Source: Propionibacteriales bacterium
GTDB lineage: Bacteria > Actinomycetota > Actinomycetes > Propionibacteriales > Nocardioidaceae
Direction of reading: 5' to 3'
DNA length: 64,000 nt
NCBI GenBank assembly: GCA_009377795.1
Contig: WHTJ01000002.1
Coordinates: 62,001 to 126,000, forward strand
Position numbers and translations under genes: made by a program. Under the pieces are notes generated by a model. It was not told the DNA's origin. It searched no databases and saw only the letters and a list, made by a program, of their open reading frames with translations. Position 1 is the first letter of the stretch, and every line of letters starts with the position of its first letter. Shown one piece after another: positions 37,959 to 48,054 of this stretch.

Positions 37959-39176
37959 TCAGGCCGGAATCCGTATGAACTCCATCGGGTATCGCTGCAG
38001 AGCCTCGGCGCCGTCCTCGGTGATGACCACGAGCGAGCCGAGCTGCAGGCCGCGCCGCCGGTCCGGCGACAGAACGTGCGGCTGCAGTACGACGGTCATC
38101 CCCGGCTCGAACGTCGTCGGCTCCTGTGGCCGCGCGATGGTCGCGATCTCCGGTACGTCCAGGCGAGGCGGTTCGAGACTCAGCCCCCAGCCGTGGAGCA
38201 GGGCGTCCATGGTCCACATGCCGGCGTCCTGCGCCACCGGACGGGCCGCCCGGCGTACGTCCTCGTCGGTCGCGCCGGGCCCCATCGCGGCGAGCACCCG
38301 TTCGCACATTTCCTTCGCCACTTCGAAAATCCGCTGGTACTCCGGAGCCGGCTCCTCGCCCACGACGAACGCGCGATGGATCTGGCCGGCATAGCCGGCG
38401 TACGCCGTACTGAGCTCGGTCAGCACGATGTCGCCGGGACCGATCGTGCGCTGCGCCGGCTCCTGGCGCGGGAAGACGATCTCCGGCTCCGCCATCGACG
38501 TCGAGCCGATGAACAGCGTTCGCTGGTCGCCACCGAGCGAAAGCGCCGTCCCCGCGATGATCCCCGCCCACTCGGAGTCGGTCATCCCCGCCCGCGCCTC
38601 GGCCTCCAGCGCGGCCACGGTCGCGTCGGTCATCTCCGCACCCCTGCGCAGGCAGGCGATCTCCTCCTGGCTCTTGATCCGGCGCACACCCCGCAACAGG
38701 TCGGTCGCGTCCTCGAACTCCGCACCGGGAAGCGCCGACGTCAGGGCGAGCACGTGCTCGTGCGGCAGGGTGACCTTCTGGATGCCCGCCGAGCCCACCA
38801 ACCCGACCCGGCCGGACGCCGCACCCACCTCCCGCAGCGCCTCGGCGATGCGGGTGCCCGGATCCCAGGTGACGTGGTCGATCGACCGCACGCGGGCCAT
38901 CGCGTACGCCGTCGGGAGATAGAGCGGATTGCCGATCAGGAGGTGCGGTTCGCCACCGCTGGGTACGACCGCGTAGCTGAACAACGGATCCCGGTAGCCG
39001 GTCAGATAGGCGCAGTTGGCCGCGTCGGAGGATCCGGACGAGCCGCTGTAGACGACCAGCGCATCCAGGCCGCGGGCGTCCATCTCCTGCCAGACGGCGC
39101 GGTGCCGCCGGGCGTACTCCTTCTCGCTGACCGAGGGATAGAGGGTCTCGGTGGAGGCTTGTGGCGAGCGTTGCAT
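37959..39176 (-). CDS. M24 fold protein with most metal ligands lost
   Basis: 405 residues with creatinase-type N-domain and pita-bread C-domain. At the five M24 metal positions it has Glu254 and Gln265 (VLTELSTAYAGYAGQIHR), His328 (LHGWGL), Gln365 (VVLQPH) and Gly380 (LQLGSL); only the His is kept. Loss of the metal site resembles creatinase, which works without metal, so a hydrolytic or lyase role on a small molecule is more likely than peptidase activity. The ATG at 39176 has no ribosome site and directly adjoins the GATAGTATATC operator, suggesting leaderless translation. First gene of its operon, divergent from the peptide-type ABC operon. Confidence 0.85.
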   Translation of the reverse strand: MQRSPQASTETLYPSVSEKEYARRHRAVWQEMDARGLDALVVYSGSSGSSDAANCAYLTGYRDPLFSYAVVPSGGEPHLLIGNPLYLPTAYAMARVRSIDHVTWDPGTRIAEALREVGAASGRVGLVGSAGIQKVTLPHEHVLALTSALPGAEFEDATDLLRGVRRIKSQEEIACLRRGAEMTDATVAALEAEARAGMTDSEWAGIIAGTALSLGGDQRTLFIGSTSMAEPEIVFPRQEPAQRTIGPGDIVLTELSTAYAGYAGQIHRAFVVGEEPAPEYQRIFEVAKEMCERVLAAMGPGATDEDVRRAARPVAQDAGMWTMDALLHGWGLSLEPPRLDVPEIATIARPQEPTTFEPGMTVVLQPHVLSPDRRRGLQLGSLVVITEDGAEALQRYPMEFIRIPA

Positions 39177-39195
39177 AACCGATAGTATATCAAAT
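39177..39195. promoter_or_regulatory. Operator-like site between M24-3 and the peptide-type ABC operon
   Basis: ACCGATAGTATATCAAATT; GATA (39181-39184) and TATC (39188-39191) form a dyad around GTA. It touches the M24-3 start codon and lies ~130 bp before the ABC lipoprotein gene, so it could control both directions. AT-rich island in GC-rich DNA. Confidence 0.5.
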
Positions 39196-39319: not shown

Positions 39320-40981
39320 ATGCGACGCGCACGCACGAGAACAAGCTCCGGACCGGGATCGCTCCGTCTATTGGGCGTGACCGTTGCCACCTTCGGACTG
39401 CTGGCCGGATGTACCGGCGGCGACCAGTCCGACCAGAACCTCGGCGAGATCGTGCCGCCGATGTCCATCGTCTACTACGCGCCGGACGCCGGTCCGACCT
39501 ATGAGCAGAGCGCCCGGGTCCTCGCCGAGGACTTCGGCGAGATCGGGCTCCAGGTCGATCTGCAGCCCATGCAGCAAACGAAGATGGTCGACGAGGTCCA
39601 TGTCGGCGGCAATCTGGAGGACCTCGCTCTGGGGTCGTGGGGTGGCGACCCGGACCGGCTCGACCCGAGCTTCTGGGTGTTCGACCTCAGCGCCTGCGAC
39701 TCCGACCGCAACGCGGTGAAGTGGTGCGACCAGGGGTACACCCAGCTCGCACAGCAGCAGGCCACGACGCTGGACGAGAACGAGCGCAAGGATCTGGTGT
39801 GGCAGGCCCAGGAGGAGTTCCAGAGCAAGCTCCCGTGGTGGCCGATCTCCCACGAGGTCCAGGGCATCGTCTACAACAGCGAGCGCTGGGAGAACATCAC
39901 CGCCCCCGAGCCGATCCCGCCGCATGAGACCGTGATCGACCCCTGGCTGCAGATGCAGCCACTGAGCGACGACCGGGTCATCGACTGGGCCTACTACGAG
40001 GACGTCAGCACCTACAACCCGCTGGCCGAGACGACGTCCAAGGGCTGGATACGGTTCGTCTACGACACCTTCCTGCGGTTCGACGGCGAGGAGCTCATCC
40101 CCTGGGCGGCGGAGTCCTGGGACGCCGTCGACGACACCACCATCGAGCTGCAGCTCCGCGACGGGATGACCTTCCACGACGGCCGGCCGGTCACCGCGGA
40201 GGACGCCGTCTTCAGCATCAATCTCGTGGTCGACCAACAGCCGCCGTCGGTCGCGGACGCCCTGCACGGCGTCGAAGGCGCGGAGCAGGTGGACGACCGT
40301 ACCCTCCGGATCAACCTCTCCGAGCCCAACGCCGGAATCTTCCGCCAGACCCTGACCCAGCTGTGGATCCTGCCGAAGCACATCTGGGAAGGCGTGTCCG
40401 ACCCGCTCAACTGGGACCCGATTCGGGAGAACGCGGTGATCGGCAGCGGACCCTTCGCCTTCGAGAGCTGGGAACCCAACCAGCAACACGTCCTCACCAC
40501 GCACACCGACCACTGGGAGGCGCCGGACTACGACGGCATCCGCAGACTGTCTCTGGGGCAGGCCGACGCCGTGCGTACCGCGATGCTCGACGGCACCGCG
40601 GACATCGCCTCCGACGTACTGCCCGCGGCGAGCATGCAGGACCTCGCCGAGGAGGAGGACCATCTCGAGTTCATGGAGTACCCCAGCTTCAACACGATCA
40701 CGGTGTGGATGAACCACGAGAAGCCACCGTTCGACGACTACGAGTTCCGGCGGGCGCTCCGACTGGCGACGGACAAGGAACGGGTCGCACTGGAGGGCTG
40801 GCTGGGCTTCGCCGAAACGGCCGGAGAGGGCAACGTGCCCACGGCGCTCGGTGAGTGGCACAACCCGGAGCTCGAGGAGATCCAGTTCGACCTGGAGCAG
40901 GCGCGCCAGGCACTCGAGGACGCCGGCTACGGCTGGGACGACGACGGCCGGCTGCACTTCCCGGCCGGAGGAGGTCAGTGA
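39320..40981 (+). CDS. Family-5 (peptide-type) solute-binding lipoprotein with circularly permuted lobes
   Basis: 553 residues; ATG at 39320 with GGAGG upstream; signal peptide ending LLAGC, predicted lipidated Cys31. The segment order is reversed relative to family 5. Residues ~47-195 (AGPTYEQSARVLAEDFGEIGLQVDLQ, GSWGGDPDRLDP, VKWCDQGYTQL, ENERKDLVWQAQEEF, KLPWWPISH) correspond to the normal C-terminal part. Residues ~218-548 (STYNPLAE, RFVYDTFLRFDGE, PWAAESW, LRDGMTFHDGRPVTAEDAVFSI, GSGPFAFESW, FRRALRLATDKERVA, QARQALEDAGY) correspond to the normal N-terminal and middle parts. Total length is normal for a complete protein. It should still fold into a two-lobe periplasmic-type binder, for peptides or an unrelated amide/ester. 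First gene of the seven-gene operon. Confidence 0.85.
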   Translation: MRRARTRTSSGPGSLRLLGVTVATFGLLAGCTGGDQSDQNLGEIVPPMSIVYYAPDAGPTYEQSARVLAEDFGEIGLQVDLQPMQQTKMVDEVHVGGNLEDLALGSWGGDPDRLDPSFWVFDLSACDSDRNAVKWCDQGYTQLAQQQATTLDENERKDLVWQAQEEFQSKLPWWPISHEVQGIVYNSERWENITAPEPIPPHETVIDPWLQMQPLSDDRVIDWAYYEDVSTYNPLAETTSKGWIRFVYDTFLRFDGEELIPWAAESWDAVDDTTIELQLRDGMTFHDGRPVTAEDAVFSINLVVDQQPPSVADALHGVEGAEQVDDRTLRINLSEPNAGIFRQTLTQLWILPKHIWEGVSDPLNWDPIRENAVIGSGPFAFESWEPNQQHVLTTHTDHWEAPDYDGIRRLSLGQADAVRTAMLDGTADIASDVLPAASMQDLAEEEDHLEFMEYPSFNTITVWMNHEKPPFDDYEFRRALRLATDKERVALEGWLGFAETAGEGNVPTALGEWHNPELEEIQFDLEQARQALEDAGYGWDDDGRLHFPAGGGQ

Positions 40982-40983
40982 CG

Positions 40984-42162
40984 ATGGCGGCAGCGAAACG
41001 CGGCGAAGGCTGGTTCCGGTACTTCCCCGGCGACCGCCCCGAGGACTACAGGTGGTCGGCCGCGTTCAGCCTTCTGCTCGGGACGTCGCACTGGGGGGGC
41101 GCCGCACTCAGCGAGGCTCACCGCGTCGGACAGCGGCTCGCCGACCGGGTCGGTGACGACGAGGCCTGGTTCACCGAGTTCCGGGCGGCCGGCGACAACG
41201 TCGCCGAGCTCGCCCGCGAGGACGAGCACGCCGGTCATGACCTCACCGCCGCGGGCGCGTACCTCCGCGCCTGCGTCTACTACCAGATCGGGGAACGCTT
41301 CCGGCTCCCCAAGGACGACGAGGCACTGGACGTCTACCGCAGGTCGACCGAGTGCTTCCAGCGGTACGCCGAGCTCACCGACGCACCCCGGATCGAGACC
41401 CTCGAGATTCCGTTCGAGGACAGCTCCTTGTCGGCCTATTTCGTACACGGCGCGGGCCGGGGGTCCGAGCCCGGCCCGTCGGTGGTCTTCTTCGACGGCC
41501 TGGACATCACCAAGGAGCTGCAGTACGCACACGGCGTCGCGGAGCTGAGCCGCCGGGGCATCAGCACCCTGGTCGTCGACGGACCCGGCAACGGCGAAGC
41601 GATCCGGTTCCGCGGGTTCCCGCTGCGCCACGACTACGAGACGGCGGGGACGGCGGCGTACGAGTACCTCGCGGAGCGGGACGACGTCGCCGCCGACCGG
41701 ATCGGCGTCCTGGCCATCAGTCTCGGCGGCTACTACGCACCGCGATGTGCCGCACGGGAACCCCGCTTCGCGGCCTGTGCCGCCTGGGGTGCCATCTGGG
41801 ACTACCGCGAGACCTGGAAACGGCGGATAGAAGCCACCCACCAGGCCTCGATGTCCGTGGCCGCCGACCACATCGCGTGGGTACTGGGCGTCGAGACCAT
41901 CGACGAGGCGATGGACGCACTCCTGGACTTCACACTGGACGACGTCGTCGGCGACATCCGATGCCCGCTGCTGATCACCCACGGCGAGAACGACGCGCAG
42001 ATCCCGGTGGAGGACGCCCGGAAGCTGTACGAAGCGGCCGGATCACCGGACAAGACCTTGCGCACGTTCAGTGTCGAGGAGGGCGGAGCGCAGCACTGCC
42101 AGATCGACTACTCGATCCGCGCGGCCTCGGTGGTCGCCGACTGGCTCAAGGCGAAGCTGTGA
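40984..42162 (+). CDS. Alpha/beta hydrolase (dihydroxypseudooxynicotine-hydrolase-like), copy 2
   Basis: 392 residues: helical N-terminal ~135 residues followed by the hydrolase core. Triad: Ser246 (AISLGGYY), Asp337 (GENDAQIP) and His371 (GAQHCQID). ATG at 40984 with GGAGG before it; a GTG two codons earlier is possible. Starts 2 nt after the lipoprotein stop and is followed by the permease genes, i.e. a hydrolase inserted in an importer operon, suggesting that the imported compound is its substrate. Same family as 24876-26111 but only distantly similar. Confidence 0.87.
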   Translation: MAAAKRGEGWFRYFPGDRPEDYRWSAAFSLLLGTSHWGGAALSEAHRVGQRLADRVGDDEAWFTEFRAAGDNVAELAREDEHAGHDLTAAGAYLRACVYYQIGERFRLPKDDEALDVYRRSTECFQRYAELTDAPRIETLEIPFEDSSLSAYFVHGAGRGSEPGPSVVFFDGLDITKELQYAHGVAELSRRGISTLVVDGPGNGEAIRFRGFPLRHDYETAGTAAYEYLAERDDVAADRIGVLAISLGGYYAPRCAAREPRFAACAAWGAIWDYRETWKRRIEATHQASMSVAADHIAWVLGVETIDEAMDALLDFTLDDVVGDIRCPLLITHGENDAQIPVEDARKLYEAAGSPDKTLRTFSVEEGGAQHCQIDYSIRAASVVADWLKAKL

Positions 42163-42192: not shown

Positions 42193-42213
42193 CGCACCGT
42201 CGGTGAGGTGCGC

Positions 42214-43173
42214 ATGCGCGCGTACATCGTCCGCCGGCTGATGCAGGCAGTTCTGGTCGTCTTCGTGGTCATCACGCTGATGTTCTTCCTGTTCCGGCTG
42301 ATGCCGGCCGACCCGACGACGATGCTGGTGGAGAGCGGACTTCCCGAGCAGGCGCGTCAGGACCTGCTCGAACGCTGGGGTCTCACCGGGTCGCTGGCCG
42401 ATCAGTACTGGAGCTATCTGACGAACCTCGCGACCGGGGACTTCGGTACGTCGTTCTTCTACCAGGAGCCCGCGTGGAACGTGCTGGCCCCCCTGATCCT
42501 GAACACGCTCTGGATCGCCGTACCGGGAATGCTGCTGGGTGCGTTGATCGGCTGCGGCCTCGGCGTCGTGGTGGGCTGGGCGCGGCGCGGCGGACCGGTG
42601 GAGCGCGCGGGAATCTTCCTTGCGACGTTCGTACGCGGGGTGCCGAGCTTCGTACTGGGCATCTTCATACTGATGGTCTTCTCCACCTGGCTGGGATGGT
42701 TCCCCGGCTTCGGCATCGGCGAGCTCGGTGACGGCTTCACCCGGTACTTCACCTGGTCGTTCCTCGCCCACCTCATCCTGCCGGTGATGACGCTGGCGAT
42801 CTTCTTCCTCCCGGAGAACCTGCTGCTGATGCGTACCGGCGTCGTGGAGAACCGCGGCGAGGACTACCTGGAGCTGGTCCGGGCGAAGGGGGTCAAGGAG
42901 TCCCGGGTGGCCTGGCACGCCGCGCGGAACTCGCTGCTCCCGGTGATCACTTGGCTGTTCCCGGCACTGGCCGAGACCGTGGCCGGGATCGTGATCATCG
43001 AGGTCGTGTTCAGCTGGCCGGGGATCGGGCGCGAGCTGGTGCTCGCCGTCAACCGGCAGGACTACCCGATCGCGCAGACCGCGTTCTTCCTGCTCGCGGT
43101 GATGATCGTGCTCGCGAACCTGGCCGCGGATCTGGTGTACGCCAAGCTCGACCCGCGCGTGAGCTACGAGTAG
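42214..43173 (+). CDS. Peptide-type ABC permease, DppB/OppB-like
   Basis: 319 residues, six transmembrane segments. N-terminal YIVRRLMQAVLVVFVVITLMFFLFRLMP is the standard DppB first helix with the following PGDP-like PADPT; the EAA loop is ELVRAKGVKESRVAWHAARNSLLPVIT; the C-terminal VVFSWPGIGRELVLAVNRQDYPIAQ is also conserved. The ATG at 42214 is favoured over a GTG two codons upstream by the GAGG spacing. Works with DppC, the two ATPases and the permuted lipoprotein. Confidence 0.93.
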   Translation: MRAYIVRRLMQAVLVVFVVITLMFFLFRLMPADPTTMLVESGLPEQARQDLLERWGLTGSLADQYWSYLTNLATGDFGTSFFYQEPAWNVLAPLILNTLWIAVPGMLLGALIGCGLGVVVGWARRGGPVERAGIFLATFVRGVPSFVLGIFILMVFSTWLGWFPGFGIGELGDGFTRYFTWSFLAHLILPVMTLAIFFLPENLLLMRTGVVENRGEDYLELVRAKGVKESRVAWHAARNSLLPVITWLFPALAETVAGIVIIEVVFSWPGIGRELVLAVNRQDYPIAQTAFFLLAVMIVLANLAADLVYAKLDPRVSYE

Positions 43174-43185
43174 GAGGCCGTCGAG

Positions 43186-44139
43186 ATGGCTGAGATGGTC
43201 GAGTTCCCGGGTCCGGGCCGCGGCGGCCCGACCCGCGACGTACTCGAGGTCTGGGCGGGGACCCGGCGCAGGTCGGGCCTGGCGCCGTTCGTCGACGGGC
43301 TCCGGCTGCTGGTACGCGACCCGTTCGCGCTGGTCGGGCTGGTGATCATCGCGGTCTTCTTCCTGGTCGCGGCGCTGTCCGGGTTCCTGGCGCCGTACGA
43401 CCCGTACGAGGCCCTGCCGACTCCCGAGGGAGAGCTGGCGCGACTGGAGACACCGTCGGGCGACCACTGGCTGGGTACGACGGCGTTCGGGAACGACGTG
43501 CTGTCCCAGCTCCTGGTCGGAACCCGGGTCGCCTTCATCGTCGGCATCTCGGCGGCGATCGTCGTCGGGATCATCAGTACTCTCCTCGGCCTGCTGTCGG
43601 GGTACTACGGCCGCTACGTGGACGACGTCATCATGCGGGCGACGGATGTCGCGTTGAGCATTCCGACGCTGCCGATCGCGATCGTCGCGGTCGCGATCCT
43701 CGGGGCCAGCCTCCGCAACATCATCCTGGTCGTCGTACTGCTCTTCTGGCGCAACGGCGCACGCATCGTCCGCTCGGTCGTGCTTACGGAGAAGGAGAAG
43801 GTGTACGTCCAGGCGGCACGTGCGGCCGGGGCGTCGCACCTGTACATCATGCGGGTGCACATCCTGCCGAACGTGATCCCGGTGGCCTTCCTCTGGATGA
43901 CGATGTCCGTGGCGTTCGCCATTCTCGCCGAGGCGAGCCTGAGCTTCATCGGCCTCGGCGACCCGAACGCCATGAGCTGGGGACAGATGCTCAACCTGGC
44001 GTTCACCGAGGGCTCGATCCGCACGGCCTGGTGGTGGGTGCTCCCGCCGTCGCTGTGCCTCGTCTTTCTGATCTCGTCCATCTACGTGGTCGGCCGGGCG
44101 TGGGAAGAGAAGACCAACCCGCGGCTGCGGAGGAGGTAG
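43186..44139 (+). CDS. Peptide-type ABC permease, DppC/OppC-like
   Basis: 317 residues, six transmembrane segments after a cytosolic N-terminus. Landmarks: LAPYDPYEALP, HWLGTTAFGNDVLSQLLVGTRVAFIVG (~104-130), EAA loop YVQAARAAGASHLYIMRVHILPNVIPV, and LSFIGLGDPNAMSWGQML near the end. GGAGG ribosome site. Slightly unusual is a charged N-terminal extension of ~40 residues. Confidence 0.93.
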   Translation: MAEMVEFPGPGRGGPTRDVLEVWAGTRRRSGLAPFVDGLRLLVRDPFALVGLVIIAVFFLVAALSGFLAPYDPYEALPTPEGELARLETPSGDHWLGTTAFGNDVLSQLLVGTRVAFIVGISAAIVVGIISTLLGLLSGYYGRYVDDVIMRATDVALSIPTLPIAIVAVAILGASLRNIILVVVLLFWRNGARIVRSVVLTEKEKVYVQAARAAGASHLYIMRVHILPNVIPVAFLWMTMSVAFAILAEASLSFIGLGDPNAMSWGQMLNLAFTEGSIRTAWWWVLPPSLCLVFLISSIYVVGRAWEEKTNPRLRRR

Positions 44140-44140
44140 C

Positions 44141-45211
44141 GTGCCGGCACAACCCACGGCCACCGCTTCGGCGGCGCCCATCTCGGACCGGCCACCGGTC
44201 TCCTTGCGGGTATCCGGGCTTCGGGTCGGCTACCGCGTGGAGCAGGGCCACCTGCGGGCGGTGGACGGAGTCGACCTGGAGGTGAACCCGGGTGAGTCGC
44301 TGGGGCTCGTGGGCGAGTCCGGGTGCGGAAAAAGCACGGTAGGCAAGGCGATTCTGCGTCTTCTCCCAGAGGATGCGAGGGTCGAGGGACGGGTCCTGCT
44401 CGATGGCGACGACGTCCTGCGGATGTCCGCCCGGCAGCTGCGGCAGATCCGATGGACGAAGCTGGCGCTCGTGACCCAGAGCGCGATGAACGCGCTCGAC
44501 CCGGTCTACCGGATCGGCGACCAGATCGCGGAGTCGATCGTCGCCCACGAGGACCTGGACCGGCGGCAGGCGTGGCGCCGCGCGGAGGAGCTGTTCACGC
44601 TCGTGGGAATCCCGCAGGAGCGGCTGCGGGACTACCCGCATCAGTTCAGCGGCGGCATGCGACAGCGCGCGGTGATCGCGATGGCGCTCAGCCTGAACGC
44701 CGGTCTGCTGCTGGCCGACGAGCCGACGACGGCGCTCGACTCGATCATGCAGGACCAGGTACTCGCGCAGATCCAGCGGCTGCAACGAGAGCTCAGCCGT
44801 TCGATGATCCTGGTGACGCACGACATAGCGGTGGTCGCCGAGACCTGCGAGAAGGTCGCGGTGATGTACGCCGGGCGGATCACCGAGAGCGGTCCGACCG
44901 CTGCCGTGCTGGCGACGCCGTACCACCCGTACACGATGGGCCTACGCAACGCCTTCCCCACCATCGACGGCGACCGGCGGGAACTGATCTCGATCCCGGG
45001 CAACCTCCCGAACCTCCTCGACCCTCCGACCGGCTGCCGGTTCGCGTCCCGCTGCCCGTTCAGCACCGACCACTGCCGCGAGGTGGACCCGCCTCTGATC
45101 GAGGTGGGCCCCGGGCATCTCTCCGCCTGCCATTACCCGGACCAGGCGGCGGCGTTCCGCGATCGGGCCGCGCAGCGGTCGACATGGACGACGGACCCGG
45201 GGGGTGGCTGA
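44141..45211 (+). CDS. Peptide-type ABC ATPase, DppD/OppD-like
   Basis: 356 residues. Walker A GESGCGKST (~64), signature SGGMRQRAVIAMAL (~168), Walker B LLLADEPTTALD (~190), His switch VTHD (~227). C-terminal oligopeptide/dipeptide extension with the Cys pair in GCRFASRCPFSTDHCREVDPPL, which may hold an iron-sulfur site in this family. GTG start 1 nt after DppC, preceded by AGGAGG. Couples ATP hydrolysis to uptake. Confidence 0.94.
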   Translation: MPAQPTATASAAPISDRPPVSLRVSGLRVGYRVEQGHLRAVDGVDLEVNPGESLGLVGESGCGKSTVGKAILRLLPEDARVEGRVLLDGDDVLRMSARQLRQIRWTKLALVTQSAMNALDPVYRIGDQIAESIVAHEDLDRRQAWRRAEELFTLVGIPQERLRDYPHQFSGGMRQRAVIAMALSLNAGLLLADEPTTALDSIMQDQVLAQIQRLQRELSRSMILVTHDIAVVAETCEKVAVMYAGRITESGPTAAVLATPYHPYTMGLRNAFPTIDGDRRELISIPGNLPNLLDPPTGCRFASRCPFSTDHCREVDPPLIEVGPGHLSACHYPDQAAAFRDRAAQRSTWTTDPGGG

Positions 45212-45213
45212 CG

Positions 45214-46164
45214 ATGGCGTCACCGGTGGTCGAGGTCCAGGGTCTCGTCAAGCACTTCACCCTCGGCGGTGGAGTCGTCGCGTCCATGCTCGGGAGGAGC
45301 CCGCGCGTGGTCAAGGCCGTCGACGGCGTCGACCTCACCATCGGCCGGAGCGAGGTGTTCGGGCTGGTGGGCGAGAGCGGGTCCGGGAAGTCCACGCTCG
45401 GGATGACCCTGGTCAAGCTCTACCAGCCAACGGAGGGCAGCATCTCCTTCCGTGGCCGCGACGTCACCCGGATCGCGGGTTCGGCGCTCAAGACCTATCG
45501 CAAGGACGCGCAGATCATCTTCCAGGACCCGTACGGGTCGCTGAACCCGCGACTGTCCGTCGCGCAGGTCGTGGAGGAGCCGCTGCGGATCCACGGCGTC
45601 AGCGACGACGCCGAGCGCGGCACGAAGGTGGTGGAGGCGCTCGACCGGGTCCGGGTTCCGGCCGCCGAGTATCTCGACCGCTATCCGCACGAGCTCTCCG
45701 GCGGTCTGCGGCAGCGGATCGCGATCGCCCGCGCGATCGTGCTGGAGCCGGAGTTCATCGTCGCCGACGAGCCCGTCTCCATGCTCGATGTGTCAATCCA
45801 AGCAGGAATTCTTGAGCTGCTCGAACGGCTGTCGCGGGAGCTCGGTCTCGCGGTGCTGTACGTGTCGCACGACATCGCGACCGTTCGCTACATCTGCGAC
45901 CGGGTGGCCGTGATGTACCTCGGCAGGTTCGTCGAGTACGGCGACACGGAGACCGTGATCGCGAGACCGGGCCATCCGTACACCAAGCGGTTGATGGCCG
46001 CCGTACCGTCCGTCGACCCCGCCTCGCAGCGCACCCGCGTGGACGCGCATCCGGACCCATCCGGATCGGACACTGCCGGCGCGGCCACCGAGACCTGCAC
46101 CCACGAGGAGCCGCACTGGGAGGAGGTGGAGCCCGAGCACTACGTCGCCTGTCCTCTCCACTGA
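45214..46164 (+). CDS. Peptide-type ABC ATPase, DppF/OppF-like
   Basis: 316 residues. Walker A GESGSGKST (~53), Q-loop IIFQDPYGSLNP, signature LSGGLRQRIAIARAI (~162), Walker B FIVADEPVSMLD (~184), VSHD switch. The C-terminus lacks the usual second Cys-rich motif in full and ends acidic (ATETCTHEEPHWEEVEPEHYVACPLH). ATG 2 nt after the DppD stop. Pairs with DppD as a heterodimeric motor. Confidence 0.93.
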   Translation: MASPVVEVQGLVKHFTLGGGVVASMLGRSPRVVKAVDGVDLTIGRSEVFGLVGESGSGKSTLGMTLVKLYQPTEGSISFRGRDVTRIAGSALKTYRKDAQIIFQDPYGSLNPRLSVAQVVEEPLRIHGVSDDAERGTKVVEALDRVRVPAAEYLDRYPHELSGGLRQRIAIARAIVLEPEFIVADEPVSMLDVSIQAGILELLERLSRELGLAVLYVSHDIATVRYICDRVAVMYLGRFVEYGDTETVIARPGHPYTKRLMAAVPSVDPASQRTRVDAHPDPSGSDTAGAATETCTHEEPHWEEVEPEHYVACPLH

Positions 46165-46185: not shown

Positions 46186-48054
46186 ATGACCGTGAAGCCG
46201 ATTCCCGCAAGCCTCGAGAAACTGCACGGCTACAGCCGTGGGCCGGACACCTCGGACTACGTCCTGATTCGTGACGTGATGGTCCCGATGCGAGACGGTG
46301 TGCGGCTGGGTACAGACCTCTACCTGCCGGCACAGGACGGCCGGCCGGCTCCTGGCAAGTTCCCCGCGATCCTGGACCGTACGCCGTACGACAAGGTGCC
46401 GAGAGCGCCGGCCGCGAACGATCCGGAGTACTTCGCGCGGCGGGGATACGTCTTCGTGTTCCAGGACAGCCGCGGGCACGGGACGTCGGAGGGCGAGTTC
46501 TCGATCTACGTGGACGAGGGCAGGGACGGCTACGACACGGTCGAGTGGATCGCGCAGCAGGACTGGTCGAACGGCGACGTCGCCACCAGCGGTTATTCCT
46601 ACGACGCGGCCACCCAGAACGCGCTGGCCCGGGAGGCACCGCCCCACCTCCGAGCCATGTTCCCGGCCTTCGGCACCTCCAACTACCGCAACGACTGCGC
46701 CGGCCATGGTGGCGCCTTTCGCCTTGCACACAATCTGAACTACACCCTCGTACACGCGCTCAGCGACCACCGGGCGAAAACGGACCCGGACGTCGTGGCC
46801 CACATCTCCGACGCGTGGACGAAGCTCCGCCAGTGGCTGACGACCCCGATGTCGAAGCACCTACGGCTGTTCCGGGAGGTGCCGCACGCGGAGGAGTGGT
46901 ACCGGGCGTGGCTGGACCATCCGGACCTGGACGACTACTGGAAGCAGAACGGCTACTACTTCGAAGGTTTCCACGAGAGCTACCCGGACGTGCCCGGCTT
47001 CCTCATGGGCGGATACTACGACTTCCTGACGCTCGGCACCGTGCGGAACTATGCCGGGCTCTCGGAGCTCAAGGACTCCCCGCAGTTCCTGCTCCTCGGC
47101 CCGTGGTGTCACGGCCCACTGAACGCGCGCAAGACCTGGCAGGGCGTGGTGGACTTCGGCGCCGACGCGTACATCGACTGGACGCCGATCCGGCTCGCGT
47201 TCTTCGACCACTTCCTCAAGGGGATGGACACCGGACTGTTCGACGAGGAGTCGTCGGTGCACGTCTTCGTCGGTGGCGGTGGCAGCGGACGGAAGGACCC
47301 GCAGGGACGTCTGGACCACGGCGGCTACTGGATCAGTGCGCCGTCGTGGCCGCCCCCGGATTCGGAGACCCGCGAGCTCTACCTGCATCCCGGCGGAGGG
47401 TTGCGGCAGGCGCCGCCGGAGGCGGACGGCAGCGGCACGACGTACGCCTACGACCCGGCCGACCCGTGTCCTCAGGTCGGCGGCGACTACACGTACTCCT
47501 TCACCCGCAAGGACTTTCCCCGGATGGGTGCACAGGACCAGGTAAGTCACCCGGACTTCCCCGGATGCACCGACGAGCTGCCGCTGGCGGCCCGGCCGGA
47601 CGTGCTGGTGTTCGAGACCGACCCGCTGGAGGAGGACGTCGAGGTGGCCGGGCGGCTGACGGTGGAGCTGCACGTCAGCACGGACGCTCCGGACACCGAC
47701 TTCACGGCCAAGCTCATCGACCAGTACCCACCGAGCGCGGACTACCCGGGTGGGTTCGCCCTGATCCTCCAGGACTCGATCGTGCGACTTCGGTACAGGA
47801 ACGGTCTGGAGAAGGCGGACTTCGCCGAGCCCGGGAGCGTGGTGCCGGTGACCATCGACCTCTGGATGACTGGGAACCGGTTCGTCAAGGGGCACCGGAT
47901 CAGGCTCGACATCTCGAGCAGCAACTATCCGACGTACGACCCGAACCCGAACACCGGCGAGCCGATCGGGTACCACACCCACACCCGGGTCGCGCACAAC
48001 ACCGTGTACCACGACGCGGAGAGGCCGTCGAAGCTGCTGCTGCCGGTCAGGTAG
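46186..48054 (+). CDS. CocE/NonD family hydrolase (X-Pro dipeptidyl-peptidase-like), copy 1
   Basis: 622 residues, usual size for CocE-type serine hydrolases. N-terminal alpha/beta-hydrolase domain with nucleophile Ser138 in SGYSYDAATQ, HGTSEGEF and the DSRGHG segment; WCHGPLNARK contains the likely catalytic His region; C-terminal jelly-roll (VFETDPLEEDVEVAGRLTVELHVSTDAPDTDF). No signal peptide, so cytosolic. Family members cleave esters (cocaine esterase), beta-lactam side-chain amides or X-Pro peptides. Last gene of the ABC operon, with GGAGG ahead of ATG 46186; the 3' end overlaps the convergent MFS gene by 8 bp. Strengthens the view that the imported molecule is hydrolysed twice. Confidence 0.9.
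   Translation: MTVKPIPASLEKLHGYSRGPDTSDYVLIRDVMVPMRDGVRLGTDLYLPAQDGRPAPGKFPAILDRTPYDKVPRAPAANDPEYFARRGYVFVFQDSRGHGTSEGEFSIYVDEGRDGYDTVEWIAQQDWSNGDVATSGYSYDAATQNALAREAPPHLRAMFPAFGTSNYRNDCAGHGGAFRLAHNLNYTLVHALSDHRAKTDPDVVAHISDAWTKLRQWLTTPMSKHLRLFREVPHAEEWYRAWLDHPDLDDYWKQNGYYFEGFHESYPDVPGFLMGGYYDFLTLGTVRNYAGLSELKDSPQFLLLGPWCHGPLNARKTWQGVVDFGADAYIDWTPIRLAFFDHFLKGMDTGLFDEESSVHVFVGGGGSGRKDPQGRLDHGGYWISAPSWPPPDSETRELYLHPGGGLRQAPPEADGSGTTYAYDPADPCPQVGGDYTYSFTRKDFPRMGAQDQVSHPDFPGCTDELPLAARPDVLVFETDPLEEDVEVAGRLTVELHVSTDAPDTDFTAKLIDQYPPSADYPGGFALILQDSIVRLRYRNGLEKADFAEPGSVVPVTIDLWMTGNRFVKGHRIRLDISSSNYPTYDPNPNTGEPIGYHTHTRVAHNTVYHDAERPSKLLLPVR

Follow-up and report, generated by a model that had tools for sequence, protein, structure and literature searches.

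A circularly permuted family-5 solute-binding lipoprotein and its relatives in bacteria and archaea

The solute-binding protein (SBP) P0001 is encoded in a 64,000-nucleotide stretch of a Propionibacteriales genome (hereafter the window) and carries the parts of a family-5 SBP in swapped order, with the canonical C-terminal part at the front and the N-terminal and middle parts behind it. We are confident that P0001 serves a DppBCDF-type importer as its binding lipoprotein and belongs to a cluster C subfamily that was permuted once and that probably takes up peptides or amides. The permutation marks a broad family and not P0001 alone, and for this family we infer a single origin.

Part order of P0001

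A phmmer search of PDB sequences with P0001 returned many family-5 SBPs, and the swap was present in every printed alignment. In the alignment to Lmo0135 (5isu), P0001 residues 254–538 match chain residues 56–337 and residues 51–199 match chain residues 344–489; HbpA2 (3tpa) gave two swapped stretches in the same manner. Overall, residues 51–199 correspond to the canonical C-terminal part and residues 218–550 to the canonical N-terminal and middle parts. The Pfam profile SBP_bac_5 (PF00496) also matched P0001 in two stretches (E = 2e-63; 215 bits against a cut-off of 32.4), the main one of which places residues 258–544 on profile positions 1–285 of 368. Against an HMM made from canonical homologues alone, residues 218–550 of the native protein fell on positions 7–342 and residues 29–195 on positions 327–492. 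Rotating P0001 in silico turned these two pieces (356 bits) into one collinear match over positions 7–492 of 517 (366 bits). With the N-terminal and middle parts, the Lower lobe and the C-terminal segment leading back to domain I, the rotated match contains every part of one SBP. The canonical homologue L055 is contiguous at the break, its residues 69–404 aligning to P0001 228–551 and its residues 406–557 to P0001 47–198. Chance is excluded as the origin of the swapped order by these E-values together with 27 further proteins in the same order. Because the canonical collinear order is absent from P0001 and its relatives, they represent a permuted variant and not ordinary PF00496 members.

The first-pass annotation, made from the sequence alone, had assigned residues ~47–195 to the C-terminal type and ~218–548 to the N-terminal and middle type. 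Phmmer, Pfam and the canonical HMM bear this out, with the PF00496 and HMM matches running in swapped profile order and never collinearly. The proposed continuation of the protein's end into residue ~47 is seen in L055, where P0001 residues 551 and 47 align to residues 404 and 406. The length, described as that of one complete protein, agrees with the single match of the rotated sequence over positions 7–492 of 517, and the junction placed at ~200–215 lies within the interval between the profile stretches, about 196–217. A lipoprotein signal with Cys31 had also been read, and the LAGC lipobox is present at residues 28–31 (Table 1).

Table 1 Features of the P0001 locus, in window positions
Feature	Position	Strand	Basis or remark
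M24 peptidase, Xaa-Pro aminopeptidase/creatinase type, divergent, upstream (start provisional)	37959..39182	-	Pfam PF00557, PF01321
Circularly permuted family-5 solute-binding lipoprotein P0001	39320..40981	+	553 aa, frame intact
Lipoprotein signal peptide, LAGC lipobox at residues 28–31, Cys31 predicted to be lipidated	39320..39412	+	Read from the sequence directly
P0001 residues 45–212, canonical C-terminal part, now at the front	39452..39955	+	PDB, canonical HMM
P0001 linker, residues 196–217, old C-terminus to old N-terminus	39905..39970	+	Between the two profile stretches; aligned across relatives
P0001 residues 213–553, canonical N-terminal and middle parts	39956..40978	+	Terminates at the domain III turn that is cut (DGRLHFPAGGGQ)
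Alpha/beta hydrolase, FrsA-like / serine aminopeptidase S33-like	40984..42162	+	Pfam PF12146, PF06500
DppB-like permease, in the permease clade of permuted-SBP operons	42208..43173	+	Pfam; tree
DppC-like permease, in the permease clade of permuted-SBP operons	43186..44139	+	Pfam; tree
DppD-like ATPase	44141..45211	+	Pfam PF00005 + PF08352
DppF-like ATPase	45208..46164	+	Pfam PF00005 + PF08352
S15 X-Pro dipeptidyl-peptidase-like hydrolase, closes the operon	46186..48054	+	Pfam PF02129 (E 4e-56), PF08530

Position of the break

We applied the rotation test to 20 permuted proteins. In native order, the match to the C-terminal part preceded that to the N-terminal part in all 20, the break falling at about hmm 342–352, and rotation in silico produced one continuous domain in 18. 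The exceptions, L040 and L044, carry C-terminal extensions and gave two stretches after rotation, in canonical order. Controls (E. coli DppA, OppA, NikA and GsiB, and rhizobial, Deinococcus and Haladaptatus SBPs) were collinear. Adding L073, L074, L079 and L083–L087, of which L085 is truncated, makes 28 permuted proteins in all.

The break is common to the permuted family, the C-terminal part starting at about hmm 340–358. Aligned jointly, many canonical members show '..PDGxPL-SFxL..' at this site, and permuted members terminate in 'GRLHFP..' and open with 'VPPI-xLLT..'; the turn is an indel-rich loop among canonical members. On VcCBP (1zty/8i5j), the cut lies after about residue 341–348, inside the Lower domain (240–488), the other domains being Upper1 (1–35/140–239/489–end) and Upper2 (36–139) (PMC10667598). 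By the same limits, P0001 residues 45–212 comprise the latter half of the Lower lobe (domain III) and the stretch that leads back into domain I. Both old termini lie in Upper1 (PMC10667598); the junction would therefore sit in that domain and the new termini in the other lobe, so that the lipid anchor of P0001 would now be on the Lower lobe and not on domain I. Several members from Alphaproteobacteria carry a plain Sec-like signal with no lipobox, and tethering thus cannot explain the permutation in all members.

AlphaFold models were built from shallow alignments, model 1 from the C-part rows and model 2 from the N/middle rows, and their confidence is low (mean pLDDT 46 and 56, respectively). 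Foldseek matched model 2 (pLDDT 56) to family-5 SBPs at 1e-19. Model 1 (pLDDT 46) shows a strand-helix-strand-helix-strand arrangement at residues 49–107. VIA-align placed its residues about 46–505 on two-lobe binding folds of the TRAP, MetQ and PqsR type with Z of 7–8.4, a level flagged as common by VIA-align itself, and this placement is suggestive at most. When canonical homologues were cut into N/middle and C pieces, MAFFT misplaced most C fragments.

Operon, proposed mechanism and probable substrate

The P0001 gene heads a plus-strand operon that continues with a hydrolase, DppB, DppC, DppD, DppF and an S15 hydrolase, and Pfam identifies two BPD_transp permeases and two oligo_HPY-type ATPases among these products. 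An intact seven-gene ABC operon had been claimed at first reading, and all seven genes are indeed present and Pfam-identified. Two X-Pro-type enzymes flank the operon, M24 (37959–39182, minus strand) and S15 (46186–48054, plus strand), hinting at a proline-containing peptide as substrate.

We propose that the ancestral gene was permuted once, whereby a linker would have joined the old termini, which both lie in domain I, and new termini would have been opened at a turn of the Lower lobe (domain III), directly before the strand-helix-strand unit SIVYYAPDAGPTYEQSARVLAEDFGEIGLQVDLQ. As no part of the fold is lost, P0001 is expected to adopt the usual three-domain fold of such binding proteins. 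It would close on its ligand and hand it to DppBC, with DppDF driving transport. The substrate would probably be a small peptide or another amino-acid-derived amide, subsequently cut by the co-encoded hydrolases.

Owing to the Dpp-type transporter genes and their neighbours, uptake of peptides or amides appears the most likely role of the permuted systems. Peptidase or amide-hydrolase genes adjoin many permuted-SBP loci, as counted at permuted loci only. Such neighbours include M28/M20 with hydantoinase/oxoprolinase, TldD, creatininase with M20, and D-aminoacylase with dipeptide epimerase. Import of non-peptides (sugars, metal chelates or opines), as by many family-5 SBPs, seems somewhat unlikely: judged by match names, relatives in the family bind oligosaccharides, nickel chelates, haem-type ligands and opines, and the loci L035 and L040 have no peptidase neighbour, but genes for M28, M20, TldD, S15, M24, D-aminoacylase, dipeptide epimerase and oxoprolinase recur beside the permuted SBPs.

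It is doubtful that the permutation is functional and not neutral, with the tether on the Lower lobe and the SBP docking differently, or being held differently, on a dedicated DppBC clade. Under such a functional reading, opening the chain ahead of the Lower lobe's first strand would make this lobe N-terminal as in ordinary two-lobe binding proteins, and the family would be a distinct transporter type across bacteria and archaea.

Spread of the permuted family

The search for homologues of the same part order, which had been suggested at first reading, yielded, with P0001 included, at least 28 proteins sharing its order and break, from Actinomycetota, Alphaproteobacteria and haloarchaea. The permuted SBP is usually the first gene of a DppBCDF-type ABC operon. 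Most permuted rows are 25–35% identical to P0001, several have long branches, and lipoboxes or Sec-like signals can be read in the alignment. At E ≤ 0.001, Pfam detects solely SBP_bac_5 (PF00496) in P0001 and in 13 of 13 aligned permuted relatives. A related-genome search uncovered a second permuted protein (G052), collinear with P0001 residues 45–552 at 29% identity, whose gene is the first of an operon encoding DppB, DppC and a DppDF fusion.

Searching plasmids with tblastn, we found 41 records in which a single place spans at least 80% of P0001. Among these, the 25 records listed are single collinear pieces from haloarchaea (Halalkalicoccus, Haladaptatus, Natrononativus, Halobaculum, Halostagnicola and others) and Alphaproteobacteria (Nitratireductor, Microvirga, Ketogulonicigenium, Roseomonas and Neorhizobium), and a second query behaved likewise; the spread beyond Actinomycetota is known from plasmid records only. 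Within Actinomycetota the permuted SBP is rare: besides the window's own, only G545 and G551 carried it among 396 genomes sampled, and 2 of 392 genomes did so within the window's taxonomic order, both frequencies being lower bounds with the best three candidates per genome scored. In the class of G545, the count was 4 of 66 genomes. Four scans of viral contigs gave two canonical SBPs and no permuted one.

Individual members show further peculiarities. A very divergent permuted SBP of Haloarcula sp. JP-L23 (L073:1865–3661, plus strand) has no adjoining ABC transporter genes. L085 (G821; reverse-strand frame from 5801) is a permuted SBP of 468 aa that starts inside the C-terminal part and matches hmm 414–499 and then 7–340, being truncated or frameshifted. 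Long extensions at the new termini occur in a haloarchaeal subclade (L040, L044, L079 and L087). In Maritalea (L063:8565–12465, plus strand), the operon is arranged differently, as SBP, ATPase, permease, permease, ATPase, and a gamma-glutamylcyclotransferase-family gene comes next. The OppC-like permease of a permuted-SBP operon, at L035:9679–11352 (plus strand), carries a ~330-residue insertion between OppC_N (3–37) and the permease core (373–554), after the first membrane helix. The insertion consists of ~40-residue repeats with LIVGExGT motifs, gives a weak match to Tachylectin (beta-propeller; E = 0.002) and is found in L067 and L083 as well, at ~34% identity. It is likely to form an extracytoplasmic propeller in an importer permease.

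Number of origins

In a tree of rotated full-length SBPs, the 22 permuted rows form one side of a branch with support of 100/99, and the permuted clade is retained at 98/97 without the terminal and junction columns. The single halves resolve this less clearly. A single branch also sets the permuted rows apart in the N-part tree, at a low support of 36. On the untrimmed C-part tree, three changes are required to explain the permuted rows, with no starred branch contradicting one origin, and the trimmed C-part tree unites them at 91 (not starred). The permeases, which are not themselves permuted, give an independent view: all 22 DppB of permuted operons form one group (99), as do the DppC (86).

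When plasmid permeases were ranked by their similarity to DppB of the window, known permuted neighbours scored 213 bits or above and other rows 204 bits or below. Permease similarity then foretold the SBP order correctly in 3 of 3 loci fetched with the order beforehand unseen. The SBPs beside the Haloprofundus (252 bits) and Halobacterium hubeiense (234 bits) permeases were permuted, as predicted (2 of 2), and that beside the Bradyrhizobium permease (199 bits) was canonical, as predicted (1 of 1). Archaeal and bacterial rows interleave in the SBP and permease trees, indicating lateral transfer. Since the rotated SBPs form one clade, the permeases form one clade and all three prospective predictions were correct, the permutation most likely arose once, after which the family would have spread laterally.

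Several independent permutations at the same turn are improbable; the indel-rich loop could be a favoured site and the single-half trees are poorly resolved, but the rotated SBPs and the independent, unpermuted permeases each form one clade. Slightly less probable still is a chimera, in which a truncated SBP gene would have acquired, at its front, the C-terminal piece of a different one. The untrimmed C-part tree, where the permuted rows are not all in one group, would fit such a fusion, and a tandem-duplication path to permutation must itself go through two copies. However, the halves sum to exactly one complete protein with no duplicated part, both halves put most permuted rows near the same canonical proteins (L007, L048, L050, L051, L053, L056 and L058), and the combined data give strong monophyly. 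An assembly error, decayed gene or reading artefact in the source genome, whose assembly has 182 contigs, can be dismissed, as frame, signal peptide and operon are intact and the same part order recurs in many unrelated plasmids and genomes, these homologues alone refuting it; the first-pass view that the gene is not debris stands on the same grounds.

Comparison with known binding proteins

P0001 and its relatives resemble the cluster C/family-5 proteins AppA (1xoc), DppA (1dpp), OppA and Lmo0135 (5isu) in homology over nearly the whole length, in size and in their DppBCDF partners; a profile of the permuted family matches 1xoc at E = 3e-82, in two stretches. The permuted family differs from these four in its swapped parts and in its termini, which, with the anchor, would lie in the Lower lobe. 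Among the matches listed, all relatives in the PDB are canonical and none has the permuted order. The chitooligosaccharide-binding VcCBP has the three-domain cluster C architecture predicted for the permuted family, but with the canonical part order and a sugar ligand (PMC10667598).

Current annotation hides the swap. PF00496 matches conceal it, and annotated records are named merely 'ABC transporter substrate-binding protein'. No dedicated Pfam or NCBIfam model for the permuted type was matched; the scores of P0001 against NCBIfam models fall far short of the cut-offs, and none of these models is specific to this type. A full-text search restricted to open-licence papers found none on permuted family-5 SBPs, which is weak evidence.

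Natural circular permutations that define an entire old family are uncommon. Engineered permuted SBPs serve as biosensors, and the present family offers naturally tested permuted SBPs for comparison. Permuted and unpermuted homologues with matched permeases would further allow a direct comparison of how topology and anchor affect binding, closure and docking.

For binding proteins of ABC importers, we found one precedent, in a different SBP class: TpMglB-2 (Tp0684), a glucose-binding lipoprotein of Treponema pallidum for which the name 'Type Ic / Cluster Bc' was proposed and which, although permuted, still binds ligand and closes its lobes (PMC4990184). Both cases are natural, clade-wide circular permutations of a tethered ABC-transporter binding protein. 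TpMglB-2, however, has the sugar-binding cluster B fold and is permuted in the N lobe, in a separate event; P0001 shows no cluster B signature, Pfam at E ≤ 0.001 giving solely SBP_bac_5. By analogy, the P0001 family would work like the TpMglB-2 type, but it is no member of Cluster Bc. What is new is a topological change like that of TpMglB-2 in another SBP class, spanning two domains of life.
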